A stretch of DNA of 64,000 nt from Cystobacter fuscus (GTDB lineage: Bacteria; Myxococcota; Myxococcia; Myxococcales; Myxococcaceae): positions 6,820,001-6,884,000 of the forward strand of contig NZ_CP022098.1 in assembly GCF_002305875.1 (NCBI RefSeq), read 5' to 3'. A model generated the notes under the pieces. The model worked only from the letters and a program-made list of their open reading frames with translations, searched no databases and was not told where the DNA came from. Shown here piece after piece: positions 7,202-49,180 of this stretch. The position numbers and the translations under genes are program-made. Position 1 is the first letter of the stretch, and each line of letters begins with the position of its first letter.

Positions 7202-7224
7202 GTGCGAAACTCGATCGTGGCGAC

Positions 7225-7632: not shown

Positions 7633-7664
7633 TATGGGCCGCGCGCTTCATCACCCGAAGCGGC

Positions 7665-8051: not shown

Positions 8052-8102
8052 TGGAACCTCCGATGAATCAATTACTGACGTGGTAGCTGTCTCCGATGAC
8101 TT

Positions 8103-8951: not shown

Positions 8952-9022
8952 ACCAGTGTCTCGTCATCAAGCAGGTGGAGCCGAGGCCTGACCGCAGGAC
9001 GATTCCACAAGAGTATTCATGC

Positions 9023-9238: not shown

Positions 9239-9324
9239 GCAGAATTCCAGGGGTGGCTATGGAGCACACAGAAGCGGGCCGGGCCATGTCCTGGGAAGTG
9301 CGTTGGTTTCCAGTCCCAGGGGAA

Positions 9325-9684
9325 TCAAGGCTCGACTCCAGCGATGACGGGCATTCCTTTCTTCGCGGCACTCGCCAAACACTGGGCCTGAGCAGGAGTG
9401 CCGATCAGCACGGTCGGGCAACCCACCACGATGACTCCACCGTGCGAGGTCGGGTCCCCAAGCCGTGCGGCGGGTTTACCTCCTATGAGCACCGTGGACT
9501 CGCCCTGAGATACCGAATCAGGAGGCCCCGCACAGACGAGAGAATCTCCAACGCGTGCTGCTGGCATGAAGCCAATCAGCACCGTTGGCTCCCCGGACGC
9601 TGTCGGTCCACCCACGTGGGGGACGGGCCCCGGCTCCACCTTCGGACACGTGTGCATGTCAGTAATTCGGGCGGCGGGCGGCAT
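9325..9684 (-). CDS. PAAR domain protein (T6SS spike tip)
   Basis: A 119-aa PAAR protein, the pointed cone that caps VgrG and carries effectors. The protein consists almost entirely of the PAAR fold: PPAARITDMHTCP at the start, HVGGP, then two GKPAAR/MPAAR repeats and DPTSHGGVI near the end, with the metal-binding His and Cys residues in place. The ATG at 9684 follows ggagga with good spacing. It is 132 bp downstream of the epimerase stop and leads a minus-strand set: PAAR, adaptor remnant, nuclease toxin, immunity protein. No other T6SS gene is in the window. Confidence 0.88.
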   Translation of the reverse strand: MPPAARITDMHTCPKVEPGPVPHVGGPTASGEPTVLIGFMPAARVGDSLVCAGPPDSVSQGESTVLIGGKPAARLGDPTSHGGVIVVGCPTVLIGTPAQAQCLASAAKKGMPVIAGVEP

Positions 9685-9816
9685 GGCATCCTCCTCCAAA
9701 TACTTGGTGGCAGAGCACTTAATGACGCGCCAAAGGGAGGAGTCAACGCCGTTGTCCAGCCAACATCCACAAGAGACCGGAACTAGGTTTTGGAACGGGC
9801 CCCCCACAGTGGCTAC

Positions 9817-32036: not shown

Positions 32037-33068
32037 ATGGACACGCTCGATACCCGGTTGACGGGGCTCGCCCTCTGTTGGCTCATCACCCAACCCAAGC
32101 GCAAGGGTTCTCGCTCGAAGCTGGAAGAAGCGCTCGGGCCCCTCGTGGAGCACCACTTCGGCCGCGCCCAGTGGAAGCAACGCTGCCCGGCCCTCGTCGA
32201 GCACCTGCGCCAGGAGTCGCTCGTGAGCGTGGGTCCCCGGGGGGGGTTGACCCTGTCCGACGAGGGCCTCGCCCGGGGGTTGCGCCTGCTTGGCACGGAA
32301 GCCCGGCCCCGGGGCTTGACGTGGAAGAAGTTCAAGGCCACCTACCTGCAGGCGCTCGGACTGGGGCTGCCCTCCTCGCCCACGACGCTCGCGTGGCTCG
32401 CGGACGCCGATGGGTTCCGCGCGGCCCTGCTCCAGCGCCAGCTCGGCGGCGGAGGCAAGCCCCACCCCACGCTCCTCCAGGTGCGCGACCGGCTCCTGTG
32501 GCGCCAGCTCGGCGTGGACACCCACCGGCCCTTCACGCTGAGCGCCGTCCAGGCCCACCTGCTGGGCTCCCTGTTGGAGCTGGACGTGACCGACCCGGAC
32601 CACGCGCTGGAGCAGCTCGCCGCGCGGGCCGTCGGGGCCACCCGCGTGGACGCGGACGCCGTGCGGCTCGCCAACGCACGCGCCTGGCTGCTCTCCGGGG
32701 AACAACCCCCGTCCGCCACCGAGCCTCCCCCACCCGAGACCCCCGCCCCGGCCCCGCGTCCAAGCTCCGCCCCGAGCTTCGCGGAGCAGGTGCTCGCGAC
32801 GGCCCGGGCGCTTCCGGCGGGCCACCGCTTCGGACCCGACAAGGTGTTCATCGCCCACGTGTGGCGGGCCCTCCAACCCGAGTGGCGTGACCGCGAGTCC
32901 TTCAACGCCGCGCTCCTGGAGGCCAACCGCACCCGGCGGCTGTCGCTGAGCCGGGCGGATCTCGTGTCGGCCATGGACCCCCGCGTGGTGTCCGAGTCCG
33001 AGGTGCGCACCCCAGGCGCCCGTTTCCACTTCGTCGTCGTCGACTCCCCTGCCCAGGAGACTCCATGA
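32037..33068 (+). CDS. Winged-helix protein paired with the dual ATPase
   Basis: 343 aa, cytoplasmic, family not recognised by name. Residues 5-85 look like a winged helix (KLEEALGPLVEHHF then GGLTLSDEGLARGLRL); there is a Pro-rich linker near 225-250; residues 255-340 form a second winged-helix-like unit (FGPDKVFIAHVWRAL, RRLSLSRADLVSAMDP, ARFHFVVVD). It probably binds DNA. Its stop overlaps the start of the dual-ATPase gene (ATGA), so the two form one functional unit. Confidence 0.65.
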   Translation: MDTLDTRLTGLALCWLITQPKRKGSRSKLEEALGPLVEHHFGRAQWKQRCPALVEHLRQESLVSVGPRGGLTLSDEGLARGLRLLGTEARPRGLTWKKFKATYLQALGLGLPSSPTTLAWLADADGFRAALLQRQLGGGGKPHPTLLQVRDRLLWRQLGVDTHRPFTLSAVQAHLLGSLLELDVTDPDHALEQLAARAVGATRVDADAVRLANARAWLLSGEQPPSATEPPPPETPAPAPRPSSAPSFAEQVLATARALPAGHRFGPDKVFIAHVWRALQPEWRDRESFNAALLEANRTRRLSLSRADLVSAMDPRVVSESEVRTPGARFHFVVVDSPAQETP

Positions 33069-36000
33069 CCTCCGATCCCCGACTCAAGGCCTTCCTCACC
33101 GACGGCGAAGAGGTGTTCAGCGGCATCCAGCAGGGCCAGCACCTGTGGAAGCAGGATCCCTTCGACGTGGAGTCCGTCAACGCCACCGCGCGACGTGCCT
33201 TCCAGCGCCTGTTGAATCGCGCGGTGGCCTCGCCCCCGCCCGACACGGGGAAGATCCTCTTGTTGCGAGGCGAATCCGGCAGCGGCAAGACGCACCTGGT
33301 CCGCGCGTTCCGCAACCTCGTGCACGGGCACACCCAGGGCTATGTGGGCTACCTGCCGATGACGGTCGACACGCCCCACTACGGGCGTCATGTCCTGCGC
33401 TGCGTGATGGACTCGCTCGACCGCCCCTATGACGAGCGCGTGGATGAGACCTCGGGGCTGATGAAGCTGTCGGACGCGCTGATGGGCACCAGCAAGAGCG
33501 TCTTCGCCCCGCTCATCGCCGCCGATCGCATCCTCGAGGACGAGGAACTGCACGAGATGGTGTCCACGGTCGCCTACGAGCTGCAGCGGGAGGATCCCCG
33601 CTTCCGCGCGGTGTCCGTGGATCTGCTGCGTGCGCTGATCTTCCTCCAGAACCGGGACGTGCGCCTGCACCACGCGGTGCTCCAGTGGATGCGTTGCCGG
33701 GAACTGTCCCCGGCGGATGCCCGGGTGCTCGGCAACCTCGTCTCCCATGCCGACGAGGAGGGTCCGCAGTGGATGCTGGAGCAGGTGGGCCACCTGCTGG
33801 GAGTGCTGGGCCAGGCGTTCGTGCTGTGCGTGGACCAGGTGGAGGACATCGCCGACTTCGCCTTGCGGCCGGGCATGGAGCCCCCCTTCCGCCGGGCGAT
33901 GAACTTCCTCGTGCACCTGGCGGGCAACGTGCCCACGGCGATCATCGTGGTCTGCTGCCTGTCCGACTTCTGGGTCAGTGCGCGCGAGGGGCTCATGCGC
34001 CCCATGCTCGATCGCATCGAGCACGATCCCGAGCCCGTGCAGCTCGATCACCTGGTGACGGCCCAGACGGCACGGGACATCGCGGCGCTGCGCTTGAAGG
34101 TCCTCTACGAGCGGCGGGGCGCCACGTTCAATCCGGGCGATCCCACCTGGCCCTTCCCCCCGGCGGGCTTCGAGTCGCTGAGCGGCTGGCGTCCCCGCGA
34201 CGTGTTGGATCTGCTCCGCCGCTACCGCGATCGCGCCATCCTGGAGGGCCGCCTGCCCGAGCGCTTCCCCCTGGAGGACGCGGGTGCGAAGACGGAGGGC
34301 GGAGAAAAGACGGAGGGGCACCCGCCACAGCCCACGCCGGTCGCGGAGCTGGAACAGGCGTGGATCGACTTCCGCGCGACCTTCCAGGCGCAGGTCCCCA
34401 CGGAGGACGAGGATCTCTCGATCCTGCTCGCCTGGAGCCTGAAGACGGCCAACGACGAGCTGGACAGCGCGGCGCGCGTCACCGTGCGGACGCGGGATGG
34501 CGCCTCCCTGGAACTCACCTCGGGACCCGAGGGCCAGCGGCTCCTCGTCGCGCTCTGCAACAAGTCCTCACGGGGTGGGCACCTGGGCCGGCAGATGGCC
34601 GAGGCGATCCAATCCGCCAAGGGACAGGTGCCCGTGCTGGTGCGGACCACCGAGTTTCCCTCGAGCACGGGCACCGTCGTGGCCGACCAGCTCCTGCGGC
34701 TGCAGAAGAAGGGAGGACGCCGGGTGGTGCTCGGAGATGGAGATCTGCGCGACCTGCTGGCACTGCGCGCCTTCCTCCAGAAGCCACACGACGCGAGCAC
34801 CTTGCAGGCCTGGCGCCAGACGGAACGGCCCCTCACCCGGCTGAAGCTGCTGGGAGACATCCTGGGAATCGATCCCAACAGCAGCCCCCGTCAGGGCCAG
34901 CCGTCCTCCGGGTCGGGGCCCGCCTCCGGGCCACGTCCGAGCGAGGACGCCACGACTCCCGCACCGAAGTCCAAGGACGCGCCTTCGAAGACGAGTACGC
35001 CGGAGCCCCGGATGCCCACGGGTCCGTTGCGGCTGGGTAGCCAGGAGGGGCTCTTCGAGAGCATCATCACCCTGGATCCGCAGGCGCTCACCCGGCACAG
35101 CGCCTTCCTGGGGAGTACCGGCAGCGGCAAGACGACGGTGGCGCTCAACATCGCGGAGCAGCTGCTCGCGCGTGGCATCCCCGTCATCCTCGTGGACCGC
35201 AAGGGAGACCTGGCCGGGTACGCGCGCGAGGAGGCCTGGCGCGAGCCCCTGGCGGACCCGGCCCTCGAGGAGCGCCGCCGCCAGTTGCGCGAGCGCCTGG
35301 ACGTGGCGCTCTACACCCCGGGCCGCTCGGATGGACGTCCGCTGGCCATTCCCGTGGTGCCCCGAGGCCTGGACACCCTGCCTCCCGAGGAGCGCGAGCA
35401 GGCCGTGCAGCAGGCGGCGGACGCCATCGCCGGCATGCTCGAGTACAAGAGCAGTCCACGGGACAAAGCCGCGCGAGCCCTGCTCGGCCAGGCGCTCCAG
35501 TTGCTCGTGCGCCGGCCTCTCGGTGGCCGGGACGTGACGCTCGAGATGCTCCAGCAGTTCGTCCACTCGGCGGATCCGGAGCTCGTGCGCGAGGCGGAGG
35601 GACTGGATCCCAAGTCCTTCACGAAGCTCACCCAGGATCTCACCATGCTGCGCCTCAACTCGCGCGTGCTGTTGTCCGCGAGCGGGGAACGGCTCGATCT
35701 GGAGGCGCTCCTCGGCCGGAGTGGCTCGGGCGGGACGGGACGGACGCGGCTGAGCGTCATCAGCACCAAGTTCCTGGGCGGCACCCCGAGCGTGCTCTTC
35801 TGGGTGTCCCAGTTCCTGCTGGAGACCCTGCGTTGGGCGAGCCAGCACCCCTCCTCCCAGTTGCAAGCGGTGCTGCTCTTCGACGAGGCGGACCTGTACC
35901 TGCCAGCGCAAAGCCAACCCGCGACGAAGCAACCCATGGAGAGCCTGCTCAAGCGCGCGCGCTCGGCGGGCGTGGGGGTGATGCTCGCGACCCAGAGTCC

Positions 36001-36295
36001 AGGGGACCTGGACTACAAGTGCCGCGAGAACGTGGGCACCTGGCTGGTGGGCCGCGTGAAGGAGGACACGGCGCTCAAGAAGCTCAAGCCGATGTTCTCC
36101 AATGGCCGGGGCGCGGATGGGACCCAGAAGCTCGCCGCTCAGGAGCAGGGACAGTTCCACCTCCAGGCCGAGGGGGCCACGCGCCAGCTCAAAGCGGATC
36201 GCAACCTCATCCTCACCCGGCAACTCTCCGAGGAGGAGATCCTCCAGCTCGCGCGCCTCACCCTGGAGCGGGTCGCCGGGTCACGCTCCACGTGA
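33065..36295 (+). CDS. Dual ATPase: AAA-type module plus HerA-like translocase module
   Basis: 1076 aa. The first P-loop GESGSGKTHLVRAF is at residues 69-82, with FVLCVDQVEDI as its Walker B-like strand. Residues about 430-615 form a middle region of unknown fold (VPVLVRTTEFPSSTGT). A Ser/Pro/Lys-rich linker (about 617-655) leads to the second P-loop GSTGSGKTTVALN (Lys near 689), DRKGDLAGYA and VLLFDEADLYLP (near 937), with RSAGVGVMLATQSPGDL, the pattern of HerA/DUF87 ATPases that move on DNA. Two NTPase engines in one chain with a DNA-binding partner suggest a DNA-processing or defence role. Chromosomal housekeeping in myxobacteria is the alternative. Confidence 0.75.
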   Translation: MTSDPRLKAFLTDGEEVFSGIQQGQHLWKQDPFDVESVNATARRAFQRLLNRAVASPPPDTGKILLLRGESGSGKTHLVRAFRNLVHGHTQGYVGYLPMTVDTPHYGRHVLRCVMDSLDRPYDERVDETSGLMKLSDALMGTSKSVFAPLIAADRILEDEELHEMVSTVAYELQREDPRFRAVSVDLLRALIFLQNRDVRLHHAVLQWMRCRELSPADARVLGNLVSHADEEGPQWMLEQVGHLLGVLGQAFVLCVDQVEDIADFALRPGMEPPFRRAMNFLVHLAGNVPTAIIVVCCLSDFWVSAREGLMRPMLDRIEHDPEPVQLDHLVTAQTARDIAALRLKVLYERRGATFNPGDPTWPFPPAGFESLSGWRPRDVLDLLRRYRDRAILEGRLPERFPLEDAGAKTEGGEKTEGHPPQPTPVAELEQAWIDFRATFQAQVPTEDEDLSILLAWSLKTANDELDSAARVTVRTRDGASLELTSGPEGQRLLVALCNKSSRGGHLGRQMAEAIQSAKGQVPVLVRTTEFPSSTGTVVADQLLRLQKKGGRRVVLGDGDLRDLLALRAFLQKPHDASTLQAWRQTERPLTRLKLLGDILGIDPNSSPRQGQPSSGSGPASGPRPSEDATTPAPKSKDAPSKTSTPEPRMPTGPLRLGSQEGLFESIITLDPQALTRHSAFLGSTGSGKTTVALNIAEQLLARGIPVILVDRKGDLAGYAREEAWREPLADPALEERRRQLRERLDVALYTPGRSDGRPLAIPVVPRGLDTLPPEEREQAVQQAADAIAGMLEYKSSPRDKAARALLGQALQLLVRRPLGGRDVTLEMLQQFVHSADPELVREAEGLDPKSFTKLTQDLTMLRLNSRVLLSASGERLDLEALLGRSGSGGTGRTRLSVISTKFLGGTPSVLFWVSQFLLETLRWASQHPSSQLQAVLLFDEADLYLPAQSQPATKQPMESLLKRARSAGVGVMLATQSPGDLDYKCRENVGTWLVGRVKEDTALKKLKPMFSNGRGADGTQKLAAQEQGQFHLQAEGATRQLKADRNLILTRQLSEEEILQLARLTLERVAGSRST

Positions 36296-36581: not shown

Positions 36582-37517
36582 CTAATAGATGTGAAAGGCT
36601 GCTTGGAACCGGTTCTCGCAACGCTCCGGTGTCCGCGCATCGAGCGCTTCGCATAGGCGGTTGCGGCTGGACACCGCGTGCTGAAGGAATTTGACGCGGT
36701 GCTGTTCCTCCAGCCCTGCCACGAGGTTGCTTCCCGTGCCAGCGACATCGGGGACTGTGGGAGTCCAAGCCCAGCGGCTCAGCTTGATACCGAAGTCACT
36801 CCTCCAGTTCTGCCTGGCTTCTCCCACAAACTGGGCCAGAAAGTCGAAGAACAGGAGCGCACCTTCCGTGAACGAGCTGAAACCGACCTCGGAGAAGAAC
36901 CGCACCGCGATCGTCTCAATGGCAAAGGACTTCAAACACGCGGTGGGAGGGATGCGCTTGTTCCAGAACTTTAGTACCTTGACTAGGGGGACAAACCGTC
37001 CCTCCCGCTGTTTATTGACATGTGTCGTGTGCTCAGCATGAACCCTGGGAGCGGAGAGAATCCACTCCTCCGTCTCTGAGTCCAAGACATAGATTCGGCC
37101 GCTCTCGGAGGACTCGAGAATGGCGGGCACCGCGTCGATATGCATCTTGTTGAGCGCCAGCCCCACCGAGCGGCGTTGCCTCTGGACTACGCTGTCGGGA
37201 TATCGATAGCGAATAGCGCGCTCGAACGTGGTGAGGACCACGCTGGGACGGGGCTTATCCGCAAGAAAGCCGCGCGGCCACTTGGACGGATCGATAAGGA
37301 AGATGATGTCGACGTCATCGAGCGGAGCAATCGCTGTATGCCGCACATAGCTGCCGCTCAGATACGAGTCGATGATACGAAGCCCGATGTTCCCAGAGTC
37401 CAACCGGTACCGCAGGGTGTGGTGTGTCCGCTGGGCATCCTCTTTCTGGCTGGGGGTGGGTTCGACATCCTGAATCAGGTCCAGGAACAGCTCTTCCAAG
37501 AACTCCGCGCTCCTCAT
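36582..37517 (-). CDS. CD-NTase-like nucleotidyltransferase (third copy)
   Basis: 311 aa. Nucleotidyltransferase core GSYVRHTAIAPLDDVDIIFLI supplies Gly-Ser and the two metal Asp; the third Asp is in MHIDAVPAI. The helical C-terminal part has VPLVKVLKFWNK, as in OAS-like/SMODS enzymes. ATG 37517 is preferred over GTG 37547 because ggaggt lies 4 nt upstream. It is paralogous to the copy at 40581-41522 (common SQ.E.AQR.H start and SGSY.R.TAI.PLDDVDI core). It follows the E2-E1 gene after a 262-bp gap and could have its own promoter. Predicted to make cyclic or linear oligonucleotides. Confidence 0.82.
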   Translation of the reverse strand: MRSAEFLEELFLDLIQDVEPTPSQKEDAQRTHHTLRYRLDSGNIGLRIIDSYLSGSYVRHTAIAPLDDVDIIFLIDPSKWPRGFLADKPRPSVVLTTFERAIRYRYPDSVVQRQRRSVGLALNKMHIDAVPAILESSESGRIYVLDSETEEWILSAPRVHAEHTTHVNKQREGRFVPLVKVLKFWNKRIPPTACLKSFAIETIAVRFFSEVGFSSFTEGALLFFDFLAQFVGEARQNWRSDFGIKLSRWAWTPTVPDVAGTGSNLVAGLEEQHRVKFLQHAVSSRNRLCEALDARTPERCENRFQAAFHIY

Positions 37518-37779
37518 CAGCACCTCCGTCGCATCCGCCTTTCGCACTCAATAGGGAAGACGCCCAAGCGGGTGAAAGCCATCACGAGCCGGTGCTTTTT
37601 TTGAAACGGCTACATGGCCTCTCCACCGGCCCGGCGCACAGCCCGCTTCGGCCTTCCGTTCGCGCTCATGGGTGGCGGCCTGTACCGTCGGCGCCTTGGG
37701 GGATTCGAGGGGTGGGGCACCATCTATCTATGCGCCGGCCAAAGAAAACAAGCCGTGCTCTCCCGTCCATTCTGACTGG

Positions 37780-39549
37780 TCAAGACCTCTTCAACCGGTC
37801 CACTTGCAGGGCAGCCAATTCCTTCTCCTCCTCCGAGGCCAGTGGGAGTTCATCCCCAATCCCACATACGGGGCACGCGGGATCTTGTGGGATGCGCTCC
37901 ACCCTCACCTGAAGCGGACCATCAACTGCCCATCCTCCGTGATTGGACCAGATCAGGTGATCCCCGTGAGCCTTCGGGTAATCGAGCCCACCCTTGATCC
38001 GCTCTCCGAGAGTCTGCAACGTCATCCGCGCGGTGATCAGCGCGACTTGCTCAACGTCCATCCCGAGCCCGGGGAATCCTGATTGCTGATAGGCAGGGAC
38101 ACCCATGTCAACGCGGTCGAAGCGCGGAAATCGACCGGGCTCCGCGTGTTGAGCGTTCAGCACACATTGATAGCAGGGCGTTACCCCCGGCAGAACCCTG
38201 AATATCCGCCCGTGCTCCGCACGTCCCAATACTGCGGCGAAGATCCCGGGGCATGCGCCGGTCACACACAGATGGTTGACCACGCGCTCCACCTCGGTCG
38301 TGGCGGTGGCGCAGACGACAATGCCCAGCGGGTTATGTGTCACCTCGATGAGGTGCTGCGTCGGATCCATCCCCCAGCCGACCGGATCCAACGAGAGCGC
38401 GGCTTGCACCTGGAGCACTTCCGCAACGGGGTTGATCCGACGAATCGCTCTGCTCACGACCTCCACCTTGGGCAAACAGATCTCGTCTACACCGCCCACG
38501 TGCCGCGCCACGTTCTCTGGGTCGAGGAACTCCGGGTCGAGGAGCACGAACCTCCCCACGCCGGTCTTCGCAAGCGCGACCGCAACACTGCTGCCAAGGC
38601 TGCCTACCCCGACGATCGCGACCTGCGCGCGCTGGAGTCCCTTGCTGTCCCCCAGGCGATCGTCAACGCGCTGGAATATGCGCTCCTCGAGGTTCTCTTC
38701 GAAAGGTTTTACATAGATCAACCTCTCTTTAGGGTCCGTGTCCGGAGCGGTTCCGGTCCTCATGAGGACGAATCTCAACCCATCGTTCAACACCAGCAGG
38801 ATCAACGCCTGCTCCATGAACAACTGTCGTGCTTGTTCGTTCGGGAGCTGCTGTCGAATCCACTCTTCAAGCATGTGCAGCGACAAAGGGACCTGCTCCA
38901 CAGTCTTGTTGATCCTGCACCACAAACCCTGCCGCAGACGGCTCAACCCCAGCGAGGCAACCCACTGCGCCCCAAGGTCGGCCGCGAGAGGTCTGGTAAT
39001 GATCAGCGAGGGCGAGGTTCCGTCCACGCTCATCACACGTAGGAGCCGCCCGTCCTTTCTACCAAGCACCATCAGCATTCCCCATTCGCCCCCCTGACGC
39101 AGCGCCGCCACGATGCTCGGCGGCACGGAGACCCGGATGGAGTGCGTCGTCAGGGGGATGTCCTCGATTCGAGGGAACTCGCCGCGAGTCTCCTCCTCCA
39201 GGTACGTCACGAACCGATCGAGAGCCTCTCCTGCTGTGTACTCTGGTCGCCATCCTCGTCGAGGGTCATGCGCGAACAAACACAGACTTAGATCCGGGAA
39301 CATGTACCCATGGGCGCGATGGTCGATCACGTCTGCGCCATCGACTGACAACTCCCAGGTAACGGGCGGGCGCAAGGGAAACTCCGGCGGCCATACCAGC
39401 CGGTATCGCCGGGGTCCAACTGCGGTATCGACCGTGCCTTCGGCGAAGGTCACCGGGCGCTCCTCAATCCGCAGGATGTTGGGGTGTCGTTGGTGGAGGA
39501 CACGCAGTTCCTCCAGCCACCGCCGTCGGTCACTGTCAGGGAATGGCAT
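37780..39549 (-). CDS. cap2: E2-E1 fusion protein, Cap2-like
   Basis: 589 aa. An N-terminal E2-like domain (about 1-125) carries YMFPDLSLCLF with the candidate catalytic Cys90. After a linker domain comes a ThiF/E1 adenylation domain with VAIVGVGSLGSSVAVALA (near 309) and LDPEFLDPENVARH. Cys pairs CYQC (459-462) and CPVC (559-562) look like a zinc site. In type II CBASS, Cap2 joins the C-terminus of the CD-NTase to targets and primes it. Here the CD-NTase gene directly upstream (6 nt) ends in Gly. No JAB peptidase gene (Cap3) is nearby. Confidence 0.85.
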   Translation of the reverse strand: MPFPDSDRRRWLEELRVLHQRHPNILRIEERPVTFAEGTVDTAVGPRRYRLVWPPEFPLRPPVTWELSVDGADVIDHRAHGYMFPDLSLCLFAHDPRRGWRPEYTAGEALDRFVTYLEEETRGEFPRIEDIPLTTHSIRVSVPPSIVAALRQGGEWGMLMVLGRKDGRLLRVMSVDGTSPSLIITRPLAADLGAQWVASLGLSRLRQGLWCRINKTVEQVPLSLHMLEEWIRQQLPNEQARQLFMEQALILLVLNDGLRFVLMRTGTAPDTDPKERLIYVKPFEENLEERIFQRVDDRLGDSKGLQRAQVAIVGVGSLGSSVAVALAKTGVGRFVLLDPEFLDPENVARHVGGVDEICLPKVEVVSRAIRRINPVAEVLQVQAALSLDPVGWGMDPTQHLIEVTHNPLGIVVCATATTEVERVVNHLCVTGACPGIFAAVLGRAEHGRIFRVLPGVTPCYQCVLNAQHAEPGRFPRFDRVDMGVPAYQQSGFPGLGMDVEQVALITARMTLQTLGERIKGGLDYPKAHGDHLIWSNHGGWAVDGPLQVRVERIPQDPACPVCGIGDELPLASEEEKELAALQVDRLKRS

Positions 39550-39555
39550 GGATGT

Positions 39556-40515
39556 CTACCCGAACCTGGAGCCGTGACCATCTGGAGCGGACGGCAGCGA
39601 TGCCGAAACGCCGATGACGGTCGAGCGCCCCTCCTTTCCCTTCTCCGGGTAGGGATCCCCAAAAAGCCCGTACAGGAGGTCATGGGCCCGCTCCGTGTGG
39701 CCAGCCTGCGCGAGTTCCTTCGCCTCCTTCAGCGTCACGGCAACCTGGCTCAACCGTGTCTTCGCGGCGGTCTTCTCCGCGTCGGTCATGCCCTGGTTGA
39801 TGTATGGCCCCAGCGCCGCCGGATCCTGCGTATCGAGGAGCACGCGAGAAGCCAAGCCCTCGAAGATCTGGATGAGGCCATCAAGCCGGTTCTCCGGCTT
39901 CGCCACGAGCACATCCCAGATCATCACCTCAATGAGGAACGACCGCAGTCGCGCCCCGTCCGGCTGCCGCCGGTTCCAGTGCTTCACCGCCTTGGTGAGG
40001 GGCTTGAGTTCCTTGCCCGCGGCCTCGTTGGCCTCCACCGACAAGCGTTCGTGGATACGTGGGTTGGAACGGATCCAGGTCTTCGCCTGGAGGTCCGGGA
40101 TCCAGAAGATCTCGCTGTTGCCCTTATCGAGGAACGCGGGGACGACATCGTAGGCGATTCCCGTGGTGGAGAATGAGATGTTCACCGAGCGGTTCTGTGG
40201 ATCGGCGGTCTTGCCCGAGTACTGATCCTCAAGCGCGCGTCGCACCGTCTTCAGTGCATCCATCGGGCTGCTGATGGCCGGGTCGAGTTCGGGCGTGCGC
40301 TTCAGCACGCAGAACAGGTCGATGTCCTTGAGCGGACGGATGGCCGTGCTCCGCGCGTAGGAACCGGTGAGGAATGGGTAGTGGTCGGGCTCGATCTCCA
40401 GCCGGCTGGCGAGTCCATCGCGCAGGAACTTGTGCTGGTCGCTGGCGGCCGTCCTCTCGGCAGAGGTGAGCTCGAGTGCGGAAATGAAGTCATGAACTGC
40501 TTGTCGAACCTGCAT
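39556..40515 (-). CDS. CD-NTase-like nucleotidyltransferase ending in Gly (Cap2 substrate candidate)
   Basis: 319 aa. The core GSYARSTAIRPLKDIDLFCVL has the Gly-Ser and metal Asp residues; the third Asp is in IAYDVVPAF. The C-terminal part is helical (LKPLTKAVKHWNRR, then a long helix), and the protein ends ...DGHGSRFG on a flexible Ser/Pro/Gly-rich tail. A flexible Gly-ending tail is what a Cap2-type E1-E2 would need, and the Cap2-like gene starts 6 nt downstream. It is distinct from the two other nucleotidyltransferases, which resemble each other more. ATG 40515 follows ggagg. Confidence 0.85.
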   Translation of the reverse strand: MQVRQAVHDFISALELTSAERTAASDQHKFLRDGLASRLEIEPDHYPFLTGSYARSTAIRPLKDIDLFCVLKRTPELDPAISSPMDALKTVRRALEDQYSGKTADPQNRSVNISFSTTGIAYDVVPAFLDKGNSEIFWIPDLQAKTWIRSNPRIHERLSVEANEAAGKELKPLTKAVKHWNRRQPDGARLRSFLIEVMIWDVLVAKPENRLDGLIQIFEGLASRVLLDTQDPAALGPYINQGMTDAEKTAAKTRLSQVAVTLKEAKELAQAGHTERAHDLLYGLFGDPYPEKGKEGRSTVIGVSASLPSAPDGHGSRFG

Positions 40516-40580
40516 GGTGTCCTCCAGAAAGAATAGATGCCGTTAGCGCGAAGATCGCGCGCACGGGAGCGCCCCGTGGG

Positions 40581-41522
40581 TCACCAACCGAGCTCTCGCA
40601 GATGGCTTCCAAACGCCTGCTCGATCTTGCGCTCTGCCTCATTCCATGTCCTGGCTTGCTCCGCTTGGAGAATCCATTCCCGGCTGGCCGCGGCCCGGCG
40701 GAGGAAACACTCGCGACCTTGCCTCGTGACGCTGACCGCCACGTTCGTGCACTCGGCCGTATCCGGCACCACGCAATTCCCGAGGCGGAGTGACATGCCA
40801 CGATCATCTCCCCAGGGGTATTCACACGGGCCACCGCCGATGTAGCAGACGAAATCGAAGAACTGAACGAGGCCGGTCTGAAGAGAGCGTAGCCTAGCTG
40901 AAGCAAACAGCCTCGCAGCAATCGTCTCAACACAGAACGACTTGAGGCGCAGATCCTCGGACGCGCCCAGATTCCAGGTCTTGAGCAGCTTTACCAACGG
41001 CTTGAATAATCCTCCCTGCCTCTGGTTGATTTCCGTCGAGAGCGCACCGTGTATTTTGGGCGCGGAGCGGATCCACCCATCATTTTCCGCGTCCGGGATG
41101 AGGAGTCGCTCACTGCCTCTTCCGTCCGCGCTGACTGCGGGGACCACGTCCACATTCAGGTGCCACATCTGGAGCCGAATGGATCGACGTTGAACCCGGA
41201 GTTCCGTCTCCGGATACCGCCACTCCAATGCCCGCTTGAAGGTCTGAAGCACCGCGCTGGGGTCAGGGAGAGCGCCGCCACTCGGCGTTTTCCAATGGCC
41301 AGGATCCACGACGAAGATGATGTCCACGTCATCGAGCGGACGAATGGCGGTTGCCCGTGGGTAGCTACCGCTCAGGAAATGCTCCCGGATGATCGACTCC
41401 ATGTTTCCGGTCACCAGGATGTCTCGGAGGTAGCGGTGGCTGCGCTGCGCGCCCTCCTTCTCCTCCTGCGAAGGCTCGACGCTGCGAAGTATCCTGCGCA
41501 GTGACTCGGTCAGATCCATCAT
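40581..41522 (-). CDS. CD-NTase-like nucleotidyltransferase (paralogue of 36582-37517)
   Basis: 313 aa. Core GSYPRATAIRPLDDVDIIFVV, third Asp in LNVDVVPAV, and FKPLVKLLKTWN in the helical part. The C-terminus is ...LRELGW, not Gly. Two ATG codons stand in tandem (41522 and 41519); the 38 nt between the SAVED gene stop and this start contain ggtga. Shared motifs with 36582-37517 along the whole length show a duplication. Catalytic residues are kept, so it is probably an active nucleotide second-messenger synthase. Confidence 0.83.
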   Translation of the reverse strand: MMDLTESLRRILRSVEPSQEEKEGAQRSHRYLRDILVTGNMESIIREHFLSGSYPRATAIRPLDDVDIIFVVDPGHWKTPSGGALPDPSAVLQTFKRALEWRYPETELRVQRRSIRLQMWHLNVDVVPAVSADGRGSERLLIPDAENDGWIRSAPKIHGALSTEINQRQGGLFKPLVKLLKTWNLGASEDLRLKSFCVETIAARLFASARLRSLQTGLVQFFDFVCYIGGGPCEYPWGDDRGMSLRLGNCVVPDTAECTNVAVSVTRQGRECFLRRAAASREWILQAEQARTWNEAERKIEQAFGSHLRELGW

Positions 41523-41559
41523 GTGGGTTTCACCGTTACGCATGGCCCGAGCATCCCCG

Positions 41560-43290
41560 TCAAACAACCCACGGAGTCAACACCGAGTGCTCCTTCTCCA
41601 CCACGTATTCCATCATCGAGCGGAGTGCGCTCTGATCGAACGTCCGCACGACGTCCACGAGGTCTGCGGGATCGAACCCGGGTCGTCGCTGATGTCTCAT
41701 TAGGCGTCTCCCCCAGACGACGAACATCTCGGTATCGGGAAGCGCCTCGACGACGACCTTGTCGTGCACGTCGTCGAAGCTTCCGTGGAGAGGGGCCAAC
41801 TCGACAATCAGACGCTCGCCGAGCACCTTCCAGATGCCCGTATCGGAGCGAAGCGTCCTGGCTCGTGCGAGCTGGAGCGCCCAGATAAGGTAGCGCCGCA
41901 AACGCCGCTCAAGCAATTTCCCCATGCGATCACCGCTCTCCATGCGATCGAAGGTCTCGATTCCCCGAAGGCTCACGTCGATCTCTTCGGCAAGAACCCT
42001 TCCAGGCTCGCGCTGAAGCTGTGGGCCCCCCTCTCTCATCCGCCAGCTCGCCAGCGTGCCGATCGCCAGGGTGTCCGCCCAATAATCCACCTCCTCCAAG
42101 GCGAAGCCCCCACGTCCGACGCCACGGTAGTTCTGGGAAGTCAGCTCCTGATCGAAGTGGAAGAGCTCATGCAGCAGATACTGCAGAGCCAAGGGCTCCC
42201 GGTGGCGCTCGTCCAGCTGGCGCATGCCCTCGAGCAGTCCGCGCCCGAAAGTCAGCCGCCGCTGCCCGACGCTCAGACGCGTCTCATCCCCCTCCGGTGC
42301 ATCGGCGATCGTCAGCTGGTGGAGACGCGTCAGGAGCATTTCCCCCTCGGACGACGCGAGGAACGGCGGGAGATCCTCACGCTGGAGGGTGGCCTTCAAT
42401 TTCTGGGCACCCGCCAACACCGCCAGCAGGACCTTCTGACGCGCCTGCTCATGCTTCGGTCCACGGCGTAACTCCACCCTCGATACGGGCTTCCACGGCA
42501 AGGTGAACGCCAGCTCGTATCCGGGCGGTGCATAGCTGGCCACCCACGCCCTCCCCATCGCCCTCGGGTTGAAGGCCCGACCCGCCATGAACGCGAGCGA
42601 CGCCGGTCCCGAGGCGAAGAGCGCCAGGCCCGAGTGATTGGGATACGCACGCCGGGTGGCTGCCAGCACCTGCGCCAGTTCCTCCGCGATCGCGGGTGCA
42701 TGAGCGGCATCCACCGGCGTGCCGGTGCTGTTCCGGCATTCGACCACGCCGGCGATACCGTTCCCCTGCGCCCTCAAGAAGTCACGTACGGCGTCGCGCG
42801 GCAGCATGGCCTGGGTTGAGATGAAGACCCCCACCAAGCCGTTCGCCTCCGAAGGCACATCACTCAGCCCGACCACCGTGTCGAAGTAGCGAACCCCACT
42901 CGGGCGCTTGTCATCCAGCCTCAGGACATCCCACGTGGTGTCCTTTCGAACGTTGAGAAATGTCTGGGGTTTCGCCCACGCAGAAAGCTCGGCCCCCAGG
43001 AGAACGAAGAGAGGCAACGGCGCCAAGCCCATGACGAAGAACTCCACGGGCGTGGAGGATGAGTCCCGGAGCGCGAGCGCCTCGCCCGCCAGCCGGGATA
43101 CGGCGTTCGCGAGCGCGATCCAGTCCACAGGGCCGGACGTTGGTCGCTTTCCTTTCGGCCCCTGGGTAACGAAGGTGCTCAGGCGCAGGAATTTCAGCTC
43201 CCTCCGTGCTGGAGGAAGAAGGGGCAGGATGTCGTCGTCCGCGACGGGAGCATCCACATCGAGGCAAAGCACGGCATGTATCGTGTTCAT
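41560..43290 (-). CDS. SAVED domain fused to an HExxH metallopeptidase-like domain
   Basis: 576 aa. The first half reads as a SAVED sensor: VEFFVMGLAPLPLFVLLGAEL (given as VEFFVMGLAP, LFVLLGAEL) at 82-102, and GLALFASGPASLAFMAGRAF at 221-240 followed by YELAFTLP. The second half has LLHELFHFD with an HExxH zinc motif at 374-378, then FALEEVDYWAD at 397-406 with candidate third ligands, inside a helical domain to the C-terminus. SAVED domains bind cyclic oligonucleotides made by CD-NTases, so I predict a ligand-gated protease effector. It lies 38 nt after the kinase gene and 37 nt before a CD-NTase gene. Confidence 0.8.
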   Translation of the reverse strand: MNTIHAVLCLDVDAPVADDDILPLLPPARRELKFLRLSTFVTQGPKGKRPTSGPVDWIALANAVSRLAGEALALRDSSSTPVEFFVMGLAPLPLFVLLGAELSAWAKPQTFLNVRKDTTWDVLRLDDKRPSGVRYFDTVVGLSDVPSEANGLVGVFISTQAMLPRDAVRDFLRAQGNGIAGVVECRNSTGTPVDAAHAPAIAEELAQVLAATRRAYPNHSGLALFASGPASLAFMAGRAFNPRAMGRAWVASYAPPGYELAFTLPWKPVSRVELRRGPKHEQARQKVLLAVLAGAQKLKATLQREDLPPFLASSEGEMLLTRLHQLTIADAPEGDETRLSVGQRRLTFGRGLLEGMRQLDERHREPLALQYLLHELFHFDQELTSQNYRGVGRGGFALEEVDYWADTLAIGTLASWRMREGGPQLQREPGRVLAEEIDVSLRGIETFDRMESGDRMGKLLERRLRRYLIWALQLARARTLRSDTGIWKVLGERLIVELAPLHGSFDDVHDKVVVEALPDTEMFVVWGRRLMRHQRRPGFDPADLVDVVRTFDQSALRSMMEYVVEKEHSVLTPWVV

Positions 43291-43328
43291 GTCATCCAGG
43301 CTGAAGTGTGGAGACCCAGGAGTCCGGG

Positions 43329-44201
43329 CTACATGAGAGGTGTTTCCGCCAGCCGCCGAGCGACCTCGCGCATCGCCGGTCGCTCCAGCGGTTTCTTGCG
43401 CAGCATTCCTGCGATCAGGTCGCGGGTAGCCTGTGAAGCCAGGCCCTCCAGCAACTCGATTGGGGGTTTCTCCAGGAGGTGCAGATACATCAGATCCTTC
43501 TGCTGCTCGGCGACGAATGGCAGCCTGCCCGCCACCATCTGGAACAGGAGAATGCCGAGCGCGTATACATCCGCAGGTCCACTCGCGGTCTTGGATTGCA
43601 CCCACTGCTCCGGAGCCATGTAGTCCCACGTTCCGAGGAGGGCGCGTCCTGCCGTCGAGATCGCAGAGGCCGCAAGCCCCTTTCCGCCTTCATGGCCCTC
43701 CTCGCGCGGGATCTTGGCCAGTCCGAGATCCGCGAGCTTGACCTCGATGAGTGCGAGGTTGTCGGTGGCCACCAGGATGTTGGCCGGCTTCAGGTCGCGG
43801 TGGAAGATCCGGGAGTCATGCAAGAACGCGAGCGCGGCGCCGAGCTGCGCGGCGACACGGGTGGCGGCCTGGACCGGGAGCTGGCCTCCGGCGCGCTTGA
43901 GCAGTCGATGCAGATCTCCGGGAAGCCACTCCAAGACGAGGAAGGGCTGTCCCGTAGGTAGAACTCCCGAGGTGACGGCCTGGACCAAGTGCTCGTGACG
44001 CAGCTGCTGGAGCGCCTGCGCTTCATTGAGGAAGCGCCCTCCCACCTCCTCGTCCGAGCAGAGGCTGGGGGAGAGCATCTTCACCGCCACGGCTTGCCCG
44101 GTGACCGAGTGGTGCCCCTGATACACATCACACGTGGCTCCGGACGCCACCCTGCGGGCAAGGACATATTCTCCGACACGCATCGCCGCGCTCCCCATCA
44201 T
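43329..44201 (-). CDS. Ser/Thr protein kinase
   Basis: 290 aa, a kinase domain with almost nothing else. The Gly-rich loop is degenerate (RRVASGATCDVY), the ATP Lys is in AVAVKML, the catalytic loop is IFHRDLKPANI, the metal motif is DLG in place of DFG, and MAPEQW is the APE-type motif. No membrane segment. ATG 44201 overlaps the sigma factor stop (ATGA), and the SAVED-protease gene follows after 38 nt on the same strand. It probably phosphorylates the sigma factor or a product of the CBASS-like genes. Confidence 0.87.
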   Translation of the reverse strand: MMGSAAMRVGEYVLARRVASGATCDVYQGHHSVTGQAVAVKMLSPSLCSDEEVGGRFLNEAQALQQLRHEHLVQAVTSGVLPTGQPFLVLEWLPGDLHRLLKRAGGQLPVQAATRVAAQLGAALAFLHDSRIFHRDLKPANILVATDNLALIEVKLADLGLAKIPREEGHEGGKGLAASAISTAGRALLGTWDYMAPEQWVQSKTASGPADVYALGILLFQMVAGRLPFVAEQQKDLMYLHLLEKPPIELLEGLASQATRDLIAGMLRKKPLERPAMREVARRLAETPLM

Positions 44202-45130
44202 GTCTTCTTCGTCCGTTGACCCGCCCGCGCCGCCGGGGGTGGCTTCGGACGCAGATCGCGGATGCGACCCAGCAACTCCAGCTTCGCCCGCAACTCGTCG
44301 GCGCAGTCCGGGTAGGCCGCGATGAAAGCATCCTGGTCCACAGTCTCCCCGGCATCGCGCTTCTGCAGGTACGTCAGCAGCGCGGCCCGCGTCGCGTCCG
44401 AGCTGGCGCCGGCAGCGCCCTCCTGCATTCGAGCTCTCAAGGTCCGCAGGCCCCGCAGGAGCAACCCCGCCACCGACGCTTGCGTCTTCCCCATCCGGCG
44501 CGCCACCTCCGCGACCGGGAACTCGTCCAGGTGACAGAGCTTGATGGCCTCCTGCTGCTCCTCGGGGAGCTCATAGAGGTAGATGAGGAGCTGGCGCCAC
44601 GCTTCCCGCTCAAAAACGACCTGACTCGGACTCTTCCCGCGGGAAGGGGTTGCCTCGGCCTCGGCGCTGTCCAGAGGCACGGTGCTCCCAGCGGAGCGCT
44701 TCTTCCGCCGCGCGCCCCGGTCCAACTGCACGGCCTGGTTTGCGAGGATGCGCTTGAGCCACACCAGCAGCTCGGCCTCCGTCGTCCCACTGAACGTGGA
44801 GAATTTGTCGAACGCGCGCAGCGCCGTGTCCTGCGCGATGTCCGAGGCGCGCGCCACACCCGGTGGCGGCTGAGGAGTCCGCAAGGCCCATTTCACCAAC
44901 TTGCGTTGGTAGCGCCGGAAGAGCTCCTCCAGCGAGGCCTTATCCCCCCTGCGGGCTCGACGGATCAGCTCCTCTACAGCCACCTTCGACCACGCATTGC
45001 GGCTCATCCCCAGGTGACCCTTCCACTGCGCCCTTCGCGCAGGCAACCGCGGTGCACGCGGTGTCTCCTCGCGAGCAATCAGGTGGGCGTCGATCATGTC
45101 CGTGTTCTTCCGTTGGGATTCCGGCTCCAT
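44198..45130 (-). CDS. ECF-type RNA polymerase sigma factor with C-terminal extension
   Basis: 310 aa. Region sigma2 starts at LIRRARRGDKASLEELFRR and includes DIAQDTALRAFDKF; sigma4 is YELPEEQQEAIKLCHL to VAEVARRMGKTQASVAGLL. The extension of about 80 residues contains FIAAYPDCADELRAKLELLG, a segment often seen next to kinase domains. It resembles ECF groups controlled by Ser/Thr kinases rather than anti-sigma factors, and the kinase gene overlaps its stop. Starts at 45130, 45097 or 45007 are possible; I use the first. It heads the gene set that contains the SAVED and CD-NTase genes. Confidence 0.85.
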   Translation of the reverse strand: MEPESQRKNTDMIDAHLIAREETPRAPRLPARRAQWKGHLGMSRNAWSKVAVEELIRRARRGDKASLEELFRRYQRKLVKWALRTPQPPPGVARASDIAQDTALRAFDKFSTFSGTTEAELLVWLKRILANQAVQLDRGARRKKRSAGSTVPLDSAEAEATPSRGKSPSQVVFEREAWRQLLIYLYELPEEQQEAIKLCHLDEFPVAEVARRMGKTQASVAGLLLRGLRTLRARMQEGAAGASSDATRAALLTYLQKRDAGETVDQDAFIAAYPDCADELRAKLELLGRIRDLRPKPPPAARAGQRTKKT

Positions 45131-45264
45131 TCCCTAGGACGCCATTCGCGGACGGATCGCGCGCGGGGTCGGACTTTTTTCGGAGCGCCAGCTCAACGAC
45201 ATGCCAGGGACTTGAACGGGGTATCCCCAGGGCTCTAGCGCACAAAGCCCCCCATGGACTCACA

Positions 45265-48200
45265 TCACTGTCCGGTTCCTTGAGGGACGGGGGACCCATG
45301 GCAGACGAACCTGTCAAACCGGTGGTCCTCACCATCCATCCCCACGAATGCGCTGACCAACCCACAGCGTTCGTCGCGCAGTGAACGGGCCTGTGCGACC
45401 GCTCCCCGACCACTCAGCAACGCCTCATGCTCCAACAAACTCTGGGCCAGGACGAGGCCATAGCGCTTGTTGGTTCGCTCGCCGCGGACGAGACCTCTCC
45501 CCAGTTCCTCCGCCGCACGATATCGGTCGTCCGTCTGAGGCCCACCACGAGCCGCCTCCATCGAGGCCGACCCGAGGTAAGCGCGGGAGAGGATCCACCG
45601 GATGAACTCATTTCCCGCCTCCACTTCATTCAGCCTGCGAGCAAGACCGAGCGCACGCTCGAGATCGGCCGCGGCCTCCGGGAGTCTTCCCGCACGATGG
45701 AGTGCCTCCGCGCGCCAGCACAGCGCATCGGCGAGGAGTGCTTGCTCGTACGCATCACCACTCCGGGCATTCTCTTCGAACAGAGCGACGGCTCGGTCGT
45801 ACCGCTCGACAGCTTCGGCAGCACCGGACGCCAAGTCGAACTCGCCTTGCTCCGAATAGCTCGTCGCCAGGGTCCGCCGATAGTCATCATCGACGTGGTC
45901 CGGCGGCCGATCCAGGAATGCGAGCGCATCAGCGAAATGGCCGCGAGCTTCGTCGAGCCGGCCCCGGGCCAGCGCGATCTTCCCGAGCTTGGAGTGGTTC
46001 AGCGCCCGGAGCAGCTTGAGCTCCTCATCCTCCGGTCGAACGTCCAGGCCCTTCTGGATCTCCACGGTCGCAGCATCCAGGAAGCCTTCAGCCCGAGCGA
46101 GCGATTCGTTCTGAAAGGCGAAATCCCCGAGTCGATGCTTCGTTGCGATGATTGCCTCGCGAACCTCGGGGAGTTGACGGTCCGCGTGCGGGAGAGACGC
46201 CAAGTTCTCGTCGATCTTGTGCAGCATGGCCCGCCGCACCTCGAGCGTATAAGCGACCCTGCCAAGCTTCCAGTCGGCGTCGGAAACGAACTGGTGCGTG
46301 GCGAGGACGATGCGCTGGAGATTCTCTTGAGCTCGCCGCCACTCGCGGTAGGCGCTGAGCGCGCTGAAGGAGATGGCGACCACCGCAGCCATCGCCGCGA
46401 GTGCCAGTCCCTGCCTGAGCCGGACACGACGGCGATCAAGACCTCGCGCGGCAGTGAGAAAGCGGGAGGCACGCTCGCTCACCCCGCGGCCCGGGGAACC
46501 GCTTCTGGAGGATAGGCCCGCCGCATCCCCGTAGTGCGCGAGCAACGAGCCGGAAGGCAACCCTTCCGTCGGGCATCCTGCGTGCTCCCACGATTGCGCG
46601 GCGATCTCCAGAGCCGCCTGCCGCTCGAGCAAGACGCGCTCGCTCTCGATCCAATCCGCGAGTGACGGAACCTGCTGCAGGAGCGACTCGTGTATCAAGT
46701 CCACACGCTGCTCCGCGGGCTCATCTCCGGCAGAGAGCACGATGAGCCGGAGCCCCTCCTCGGCGACGTCCCGAGTCCCGGTCCGCATGCCGGAGAGCCG
46801 CATCAAGACCTCCAGCGACAACGCGTCTCCCCCGCCGGCCTCGAATACCTCCCGCCGGGTGCGGGGCCGCCGCGTGTCTGGGACACCGCGGCCGACCTGC
46901 ACGAGATCCAGGAGAATCCACTTCGCGCGTTCGCGTCCCTGGGAGCCGAGCCCGTCGAGTAACCGTTCCGCCTGCCGCGCCAGGGCTCCGCCGACTCCAC
47001 CGAGCTGCTCGTATCGCTCATGGGTCAGCTGGGCACCGCTGCGCAGGGACCCCACAACGCGTGGAGAGCTTGGCCAAGCAGCAGAAGCTGGCTTCCTTCG
47101 CTCCTCGCGTCACGAACCATCCGCAGCGACAGTCCCTCGGAGAGCCGCAGTCCGACGCGCTGGGCCATTCCTTCGATGACTTGCGTCAGCGCCTCCTCCT
47201 CCATCGGTAGGAGGTGATAGCGCGCAGCCTGGTTGAGCCGCGCCGCCATTCGCGGCATCTGCTCCAGCCGGTGGATGAAGTCGCTCCGAATCGTCGTGAG
47301 CAACCGCAGGGGTGAACCAAGCGTGGCGAGTGCTGTCTCCACCCACACGTCAATCTCCGAACAATCCGCGCCCCCCAGCGTGGCGAGTTCCTCCATCTGC
47401 TCGATCACCAGCAGGAAATGACCCTGCGGAGGCGTGTGCGCGCTTACTATCTCCGAGAGCGCGCGAACATCCGCGCGCAGCGCGCGCTCCAACTCCCGAG
47501 CCGAGAAGGTGAAGTCGCTTCCGGCAAGCGCATCACGCACGGTCACGGCAAGTTGATGCACCGGATCGTACGACGGGCGAAGGACCGCGACCCTCCAGGC
47601 AGGAGCGAGCTGCGAGGAGCGCTCCTTCAAACACGGAAGGACGCCCGCCTGTACCAACGACGATTTCCCTACCCCGCTCGGTCCCTCGACTTGCACCCAC
47701 CGGCGCTCGCCGCACCGCGCCTCATCCAGAAGGCTCAGGACGGTGGAGATCTCCATCTTACGGCCGAAGAACAGCTCGGCATGTGCTTCGGTGAAGGACG
47801 CGAGCCCTGGCACTGGACACTCATCCCGTTCGCTCTGCCAAGATCGCCGTCCGAGCATATCCCGGCAGCGGAGCATCGTCGGACGGGACGCCGGCTCCTT
47901 GGCCAACATGGAGGCAACCAATGCGGACAGCGCGCCCGGAACGGCCGGAGCCAGCTCGCGCAACGGCGGCGGCTCAGCGCGGATGTGCATCGAAATCAAA
48001 TCGACCGCGTCGTCGGAGACAAACGGTGTCCGACCGGCGAGGAGTTCGAAGAGCAGCACCCCCAGGGCATAGACGTCCGCGCCACCATCCACCTCCGCCG
48101 CGTTCCGGCACTGCTCAGGGGCCATGTACATGGCCGTGCCCAGAAAAATGGGTGCCGCAGTGTGCACCTGCGTATCGCCCCGGGCATTTACCTCCGGTGG

Positions 48201-48698
48201 CACCTTCGCGATGCCGAAGTCCAGCAGTTTGACGCGGTACCCCAGTGTGACCTCGGCATCGGGGCACAGGAACACGTTCTCCGGCTTCAGGTCCCGGTGA
48301 ACAATGCCCTTTGCGTGGATGTCGGCCATCACTGCGGCGATCTGTTGGCACAGAGAAAGCGCGGCTTCGCTCGGCGCTGGCCCCTGCTGGTGCCTCATCC
48401 ACTCGCGCAACGACAGCCCCTCGAGGTGCTCCATTGCCAGGAAGGCCGTGCCATCCTCCGTGCGGTCGCAATGGAGGATGCGGACCACGCCTGGGTGCTG
48501 AAATTGCGCGAGGGCCCGCGCCTCCTGGACGAACCGAGCCACGAGCTGCGGATCAACGACTGCAGCCGGAGACAGGAGCTTGAGAGCAACCACCTGGTTC
48601 ATGCGCTCGTGGAGCGCGGTGAAGACCTCGCCCATGCCGCCTCTGCCCAGCGGCCGCACCAACCTGTATGGACCGACGTGATCGCCTGTTTGCCTCAT
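45265..48698 (-). CDS. Ser/Thr kinase-nSTAND ATPase-TPR protein (frameshifted)
   Basis: About 1145 aa when the frame is repaired. Kinase domain (RLVRPLGRGGMGEVF, IVHRDLKPENV, LLDFGIAK) at 10-275; nSTAND module with VEGPSGVGKSSLVQAG and LLVIEQMEEL; then a transmembrane helix (LALAAMAAVVAISFSAL) and TPR-like repeats. The kinase/nSTAND frame ends at 47025 while HALWG...SLRSGAQLTHERYEQLGG continues in the next frame; one G seems lost in a G-run near 47050 (3434 nt, one short). ATG 48698. Such proteins sense stress or phage products. It is oriented with, and 135 bp upstream of, the sigma factor gene. Confidence 0.8.
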
Positions 48699-49180
48699 GC
48701 ACGCACGCCGATCATGACCCGAAACGCAGGTCGACGTCTCCTGTTCCCCGGAGCCACACCGCCTCCTGCGGCAGGGAAGTTGTCGCCTCGGCTGACCGGC
48801 CGAGCTAATCACTCCAGAGGGGCAAGAACAGGCGGGTACTGGCTGCGACCGGCCTGCGCGTTCCCCCCCTCCCTATCTACTTGGTGACCCGTTCGAACGA
48901 TCGCTGTTCGCCGTGCTGGATGCGGACAAGGTGGACGCCTCAAAAAACCAGAAAGAAACGCCTAAGCTGAATATGCTTTTTCCGCGATGATCCTTGATAA
49001 CTCACCGAGTTGGCCCATGCTGCCCACTTCCAAGGTCAAGCGGCAAGCACCGGATGTCCCGGACCCGGAGTCCAGCGCTCCGTGGCGACCGTGCCGCGGG
49101 TGAAGGCCACTCCACGAGGCGTGAGAGCCGCCGAGACTTGGAGATGACTTCCGCGCCCCGCACGGTAACCTGAGGCGCAG
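48699..49180. other. Divergent intergenic region
   Basis: 482 bp between the kinase-nSTAND gene and the TPR gene. It contains a GTTCGAAC palindrome near 48891 and an AT-richer patch (about 48935-48990), which may hold promoters. I see no coding sequence. Confidence 0.6.

Follow-up and report, generated by a model that had tools for sequence, protein, structure and literature searches.

A STAND kinase, ECF sigma factor and Hanks-type kinase as a probable transcriptional controller of CBASS and type III-B CRISPR operons in Myxococcota

What do an extracytoplasmic function (ECF) sigma factor and a Ser/Thr kinase do at the head of an operon that encodes CD-NTases and a SAVED protease? This question is raised by a 64,000-nucleotide stretch of Cystobacter fuscus (assembly GCF_002305875.1, contig NZ_CP022098.1, positions 6,820,001-6,884,000; hereafter the window, whose positions are used below). 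Here a cyclic oligonucleotide-based antiphage signaling system (CBASS) is transcribed from the minus strand in the order KST, SIG, KIN, SAVED-metalloprotease, CD-NTase 1, CD-NTase 2, E2-E1-like ThiF protein and CD-NTase 3, where KST is a kinase-nSTAND1-TPR protein, SIG the ECF-type sigma factor and KIN a Hanks-type kinase whose gene overlaps that of SIG by 4 bp. An initial annotation of this DNA had placed a sigma-kinase pair ahead of the CD-NTase/SAVED-protease genes, which window annotation, domain searches and all 27 conserved loci described below bear out, and had proposed a logic like that of the CRISPR protease CalpL, which frees a sigma factor by cutting its anti-sigma factor. KST (48812-45265), directly upstream of SIG and a member of the conserved gene set, was absent from that annotation. 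We consider it probable that KST, SIG and KIN constitute a transcriptional controller of immune operons, a phosphorylation-gated sigma switch that would act upstream of the SAVED protease.

A search of 195 Myxococcota genomes with a profile of this sigma factor yielded 27 copies of its subfamily at 241-420 bits, the next sigma factor scoring no more than 96 bits. KIN adjoined SIG in every copy, and KST was found upstream wherever the contig extended far enough. An HExxH protease was adjacent in 26 of the 27 loci, the exception (L065) carrying a Cap4-like SAVED gene instead, so that these sigma-kinase pairs do not lie mainly away from SAVED genes, the distribution that by the initial annotation's own criterion would have refuted its proposal. 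A CD-NTase was adjacent in 24 loci (exceptions L064, L072 and L074). Downstream of this core, ten loci continued with type III-B Cmr1-Cmr2/Cas10 genes (Cmr and Cas10 identities confirmed by NCBIfam; CRISPR arrays adjoining Cmr in L164, L165 and L169), seven with a Cap4-like SAVED protein and three with an E1/E2 gene; the SIG-KIN block stands ahead of CBASS, Cmr/Cas10, SAV2 (Cap4-like SAVED) and helicase operons. With gene orders conserved, the module spans several genera, and outside the family the full block occurs in Polyangium fumosum (L122) and a Myxococcales metagenome-assembled genome (L128). All 27 copies of the sigma subfamily reside in immune loci, an association far beyond chance, and an outgroup sigma factor (L082, 33% identity) has neither an immune locus nor a promoter-like element. 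As the initial annotation had stated for the window, no anti-sigma gene was recognized among the annotated open reading frames (ORFs) of this locus or of its relatives, and a kinase takes that place.

SAVED-M48 CBASS without the KST-SIG-KIN block was present in three contigs (L115-L117). The controller position is occupied in L116 by a WYL protein and in L115 by an XRE helix-turn-helix protein together with an HExxH-bearing neighbour that Pfam did not recognize; these are placed as CapW and as CapH with CapP would be, and the names are given by analogy. Two public records labelled Comamonas (L125) and Klebsiella (L117) carry loci of myxobacterial or deltaproteobacterial appearance and are probably mislabelled or mis-binned.

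Between KIN and the CD-NTase gene, most loci contain an A-tract and a bipartite promoter-like element, CCGCGATGG-N16-GCGTCCT, of constant spacing; this element immediately precedes CD-NTase genes and protease genes. A position weight matrix (PWM) built from 11 sites before CD-NTase genes (leave-one-out) also detected sites outside its training set immediately ahead of protease genes; most scored 20-41 bits, compared to a best null score of 16.2 bits in 646 kb. Genome-wide searches employed a structureless covariance model (R1) trained on 27 sites from loci with SIG. In the 12.35-Mb genome of the window only two sites exceeded background, both located in this locus and both belonging to the training set of the model, with the next best site at 16.9 bits; the PWM had already detected the one before CD-NTase 3, at 26.8 bits, when it was not yet part of that set. 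The initial annotation had suggested looking for a conserved promoter motif upstream of position 45130 and elsewhere; a conserved promoter-like motif does lie just upstream of SIG, and further sites lie before immune genes. The site before SIG in the window and in L057 shares a variant (GATCC...GATGGCGTCC) with the sites before the SAVED genes of L058-L061, and the sigma factors of these two groups are also closest to each other.

Genomes encoding SIG (SIG+) contained 18 untrained sites of at least 24 bits away from the trained ones, and 14 of these precede immune genes, namely Cap4-like SAVED (seven sites), Cmr1 (four), CD-NTase (two) and SAVED-M48 (one), with the other four lacking an assigned target. 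The Cap4-like SAVED gene lies about 63 bp from the element in seven genomes and adjoins type I cas3 where checked. Unlinked CD-NTase genes behind an element were detected in G075 and G077; an adjacent CD-NTase is missing from the module in three genomes, these two among them. The unlinked operon in G075 (L166:4993-15001) encodes a CD-NTase and a helicase followed by ORFs that by eye resemble VWA, PP2C and kinase proteins. A 24.7-bit site in a prophage-like region of G110 (L168:7914-7964; G110:C1:2393913) directly precedes an ORF of 67 aa, with a TerL-like gene nearby, and raises the question whether the immune sigma factor may drive a phage gene there. In G043 a strong partial element of 32.2 bits (L167:10399-10443) has no clear gene behind it.

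How SIG might be activated is suggested by the pairs EcfP-PknT and EcfK-PknS (ECF43), in which the adjacent Hanks kinase phosphorylates and thereby activates the sigma factor, the target being a Thr at the third residue of the region 2.2 DAED motif, to which EcfK adds another site in the linker between sigma2 and sigma4 (PMC8999054, PMC13147305). SIG and KIN share with these pairs their adjacency, intact kinase catalytic residues (all conserved in 27/27), a Ser/Thr in place of an acidic residue at the sigma-2.2 site and a second site in the linker (Table 1); D97, one acidic residue, is kept in SIG as in EcfK. The conserved Ser/Thr residues of SIG lie in region 2.2 and the linker, and at the Ser96 position six other ECF sigma factors of the window's genome carry E, M, A or K. 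By analogy, phosphorylation of SIG at Ser96 and/or in the linker would be expected. SIG differs from EcfP and EcfK in its folded C-terminal domain, a kinase partner without membrane sensor part, the third partner KST and its immune targets.

The C-terminal extension of SIG, which had been proposed as the cleaved or phosphorylated regulatory part, is not supported in that role. The sigma alignment revealed no conserved Ser/Thr in it, the model folds it into helices, and a natural SIG-KIN fusion in a Hyalangium-like genome (L080; a single ORF of 497 codons without stop, 6438-7931) has lost it. Because it is folded in the model, carries no conserved Ser/Thr and is replaced by the kinase fusion in L080, a kinase docking domain is likelier than a cleaved tail and represents the simplest reading. 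In a search of eight genomes the domain occurred only in this sigma family, with other matches at chance level, and the idea that it equals the N-terminal stretch of planctomycete kinases was dropped on this result. In a Foldseek search with the SIG model, every match to the aligned part was a sigma factor and the extension drew no informative match, and the nearest NCBIfam model to SIG, Sig-70_plancto1, stayed below its cut-off. The true start of SIG is probably Met42 (45007), since homologues start there and residues 4-40 are modelled as disordered, which would leave about 120 bp between this gene and the element preceding it.

The sequences themselves show co-inheritance, residue conservation and an element shared among loci, together with the genes that follow it; from these we infer a course of events whose trigger, phosphorylation step, reader of the element and order would be as follows. 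KST would sense infection, and KIN, either alone or once activated by KST, would phosphorylate SIG at Ser96, at the S/T-P-S linker site or at both, and so provide the negative charge that RNA polymerase binding requires, while the C-terminal domain of SIG would hold the kinase. Active SIG would then read promoters containing the bipartite element and raise expression of CD-NTases and the SAVED-metalloprotease; in relatives its targets would extend to a Cap4-like SAVED nuclease and to the type III-B operon with Cmr/Cas10. Within the window, SIG would act on its own operon, a positive feedback, as well as on CD-NTase 3. Nucleotide messengers would subsequently activate the SAVED protease as effector.

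The arrangement that the initial annotation had favoured is modelled on CalpL/CalpT/CalpS, a Lon-SAVED protease, anti-sigma and ECF sigma of type III CRISPR in which the protease acts on the inhibitor of the sigma factor (PMC11417357), and has a second precedent in the type III-E Csx29/Csx30/CASP-sigma system, where a CRISPR-linked protease accompanies an ECF sigma and the inhibitor Csx30 is cleaved (PMC10028731). Applied here, CD-NTase or Cas10 messengers would activate the SAVED-metalloprotease, which would cut SIG, KIN or KST and leave the sigma factor acting downstream of the protease. The tie to SAVED/CD-NTase immunity on which this proposal was built stands: a SAVED-protease adjoins an ECF sigma in an antiviral locus, as in the CalpL system, its SAVED fold, which aligns to 8tl0 with a Z of 30.3, resembles that of CalpL as well (Z 18.5-20.2), and it is kept next to SIG even in L074, where its SAVED domain is not recognized and no CD-NTase is adjacent. 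The order of events, however, is probably reversed, because the CD-NTase and protease genes follow the element and so look like outputs under sigma control. No anti-sigma or Csx30-like target was recognized at the SIG loci, which differ further from the CalpL system by their two kinases and by a protease in which SAVED precedes the HExxH metalloprotease, while in CalpL Lon precedes SAVED. The extension offers no conserved unstructured site for cleavage, the L080 fusion does without it, and the same protease family functions without SIG in L115-L117. A sigma factor acting downstream of the protease is in our estimation unlikely.

Several observations nevertheless count against the phosphorylation-gated switch that we prefer. 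Both the phosphorylation of SIG and its binding to the element are deduced indirectly. Elements also occur in two genomes without SIG, in G117 before an intact Cap4-like SAVED (SAV2) gene and in G119 as a remnant without that gene, so that another sigma factor may read them or they may be left-overs. In L122 and L128 the element is divergent, recognizable by eye alone and below threshold. KST is frame-broken in the window's genome, and the sensor may be dead there. The protease accompanies SIG more constantly than a pure effector role demands, L074 included, and for this reason it may feed back by cleaving a regulator. The SIG-less elements, together with the known action of DdvS on a type III-B promoter of M. 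xanthus (as cited in PMC11237760), would suit an explanation in which another factor, for instance a DdvS-like ECF sigma or an activator, reads the element and SIG, KIN and KST control something else. Yet the element tracks SIG, being present at 21.9 bits or above in 22 of 25 SIG+ genomes vs 3 of 25 SIG- genomes (Fisher 8.5e-8), G117 and G119 being two of these three, a contrast that is supportive, not fully independent, because the model was trained on SIG+ loci. The confinement of the only two sites of the window's genome to the SIG locus, and the element variant shared by loci whose sigma factors are mutually closest, also argue for SIG as the reader, and we rate control by another factor as very improbable. 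Myxobacteria are rich in kinases and ECF sigma factors and defence islands gather unrelated genes, which might suggest an unrelated stress regulator that merely lies inside such an island; its co-occurrence with immune genes in every locus from several genera, Polyangium and the Myxococcales genome, in conserved orders and with elements before immune genes, makes this explanation scarcely credible.

Two known kinds of immune controller come close to the proposed switch. CapW and CapH with CapP are repressors, and CapK with CapS is described as relieving one. Together these form small regulatory cassettes that head CBASS and other immune operons (PMC13373217), a placement shared by KST-SIG-KIN, which in contrast would be a positive sigma switch that reaches unlinked operons as well. 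ECF control of type III-B CRISPR is already known through DdvS/DdvA, the sigma/anti-sigma pair that controls this system in M. xanthus (Bernal-Bernal 2018, as cited in PMC11237760). Like DdvS, SIG would be an ECF sigma that turns on Cmr genes in Myxococcus; going by the cited description, DdvS has an anti-sigma where SIG has a Hanks kinase and a STAND kinase as partners, and the proposed targets of SIG include CBASS.

The features of the window on which these readings are based are compiled in Table 1.

Table 1. Genes, sites and promoter-like elements discussed in the text, in window positions unless a locus is named.
Feature	Position	Strand	Evidence or remark
KST N-terminal part: Ser/Thr kinase and first nSTAND1 portion	47025-48812	-	Pkinase 7.4e-44, nSTAND1 3.9e-51
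KST C-terminal part: remaining nSTAND1 and TPR	45265-47055	-	nSTAND1 6.8e-25, TPR; DNA comparison with L057
Promoter-like element before SIG (A-tract, CCGCG, GGCGTCC)	45124-45180	-	28.0 bits, second-best site of the genome
SIG, ECF-type sigma, 310 aa	44198-45130	-	Pfam sigma region 2 at residues 70-141, region 4 at 187-231
Ser96 codon, sigma region 2.2, EcfP/EcfK phosphosite position	44843-44845	-	Ser in 29/29 sigmas
Ser167-Pro-Ser169, sigma2-sigma4 linker	44624-44632	-	S/T167 in 29/29, S169 in 28/29
SIG C-terminal extension, residues 245-296, conserved helical domain (predicted)	44243-44398	-	AlphaFold2 helices 245-259, 266-271, 274-291, pLDDT ~90
KIN, Hanks-type Ser/Thr kinase, 290 aa, without sensor domain	43329-44201	-	Pkinase E=1.9e-44
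SAVED + HExxH metalloprotease, 576 aa (H374, E375, H378, E399)	41560-43290	-	PADLOC SAVED_peptidaseM48 (PDLC02018) E=2.2e-208; SAVED 1.4e-17
CD-NTase 1 (SMODS)	40581-41567	-	3e-29
CD-NTase 2 (SMODS), C-terminus RFG	39556-40515	-	SMODS 1.9e-20; CBASS_cyclase_b 5.9e-56
E2-E1-like (Cap2-like) ThiF protein	37780-39549	-	ThiF 8.7e-27; PADLOC E1-E2 6.7e-25
Promoter-like element before CD-NTase 3	37546-37602	-	35.3 bits, best site of the genome
CD-NTase 3 (SMODS), GTG start	36582-37547	-	3e-24
Elements in SIG-less genomes	L200:2608-2666 and L171		G117, G119

With SMODS CD-NTases, a SAVED effector and ThiF/E1-E2, the operon qualifies as a type II-like CBASS, and CD-NTase 2 with its RFG terminus precedes the E1/E2 gene, an arrangement of type II CBASS. 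No Cap3 JAB deconjugase was found among the annotated genes at 36582-48812; short type II CBASS systems also lack Cap3. Three CD-NTases are encoded within this single locus (36582-41567), and CD-NTase 3 has its own copy of the element, which the annotated GTG start overlaps, so that a later start is likely. A HerA-like ATPase gene (33065-36295) is convergent with the operon.

The metalloprotease family is already listed in PADLOC as a CBASS effector (SAVED_peptidaseM48), and the HExxH motif is invariant in all 26 proteases. In the window protease Pfam finds SAVED alone, without a fused Lon-family domain, and its assignment as CRISPR-Lon or CHAT was dropped, as sequence and fold matches cover SAVED only. 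In L074 (9339-10667) the SAVED-less metalloprotease is followed by large proteins without Pfam matches, and a GDN/IG-rich stretch is common to the C-terminus of the protease and the N-terminus of the next protein.

An intact KST homologue of 1320 aa is encoded in L057, which is about 93% identical to the window across the locus. The window KST consists of two overlapping ORFs, since a 2-nt difference from L057, close to 47052-47053, interrupts the nSTAND1 reading frame, which could reflect either a genuine loss or an error in the sequence. KST matches the PADLOC type III CRISPR accessory model C3a189 'kinase' at 1.6e-119. In L065, the locus without an adjacent metalloprotease, KST (7561-10695) is a single ORF of 1044 aa from which much of nSTAND1 is gone.

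A STAND-kinase/sigma/kinase controller of CBASS was not found in the open-access literature searched, subscription papers being outside its scope. Known CBASS controllers serve the adjacent operon through relief of a repressor, whereas KST-SIG-KIN, if our reading is right, would act positively and on unlinked targets. In a bolder version, which we offer tentatively and regard as doubtful, it would be an interferon-like switch: the STAND kinase would detect infection, the phosphorylated dedicated sigma factor would turn on a multi-operon regulon of CBASS CD-NTases, SAVED-metalloprotease, Cap4-like SAVED nuclease and type III-B CRISPR, and the metalloprotease would close the loop by acting back on kinases or sigma. 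If the switch operates as proposed, these bacteria would possess an inducible immune regulon in which a single kinase-sigma switch raises CBASS and type III-B CRISPR together, two systems that both make messengers and would share the kind of SAVED effectors that the switch raises. A kinase cascade would thereby have a direct antiphage role, and the signal sensed by the STAND kinase would become a testable question with promoter activity as its readout.
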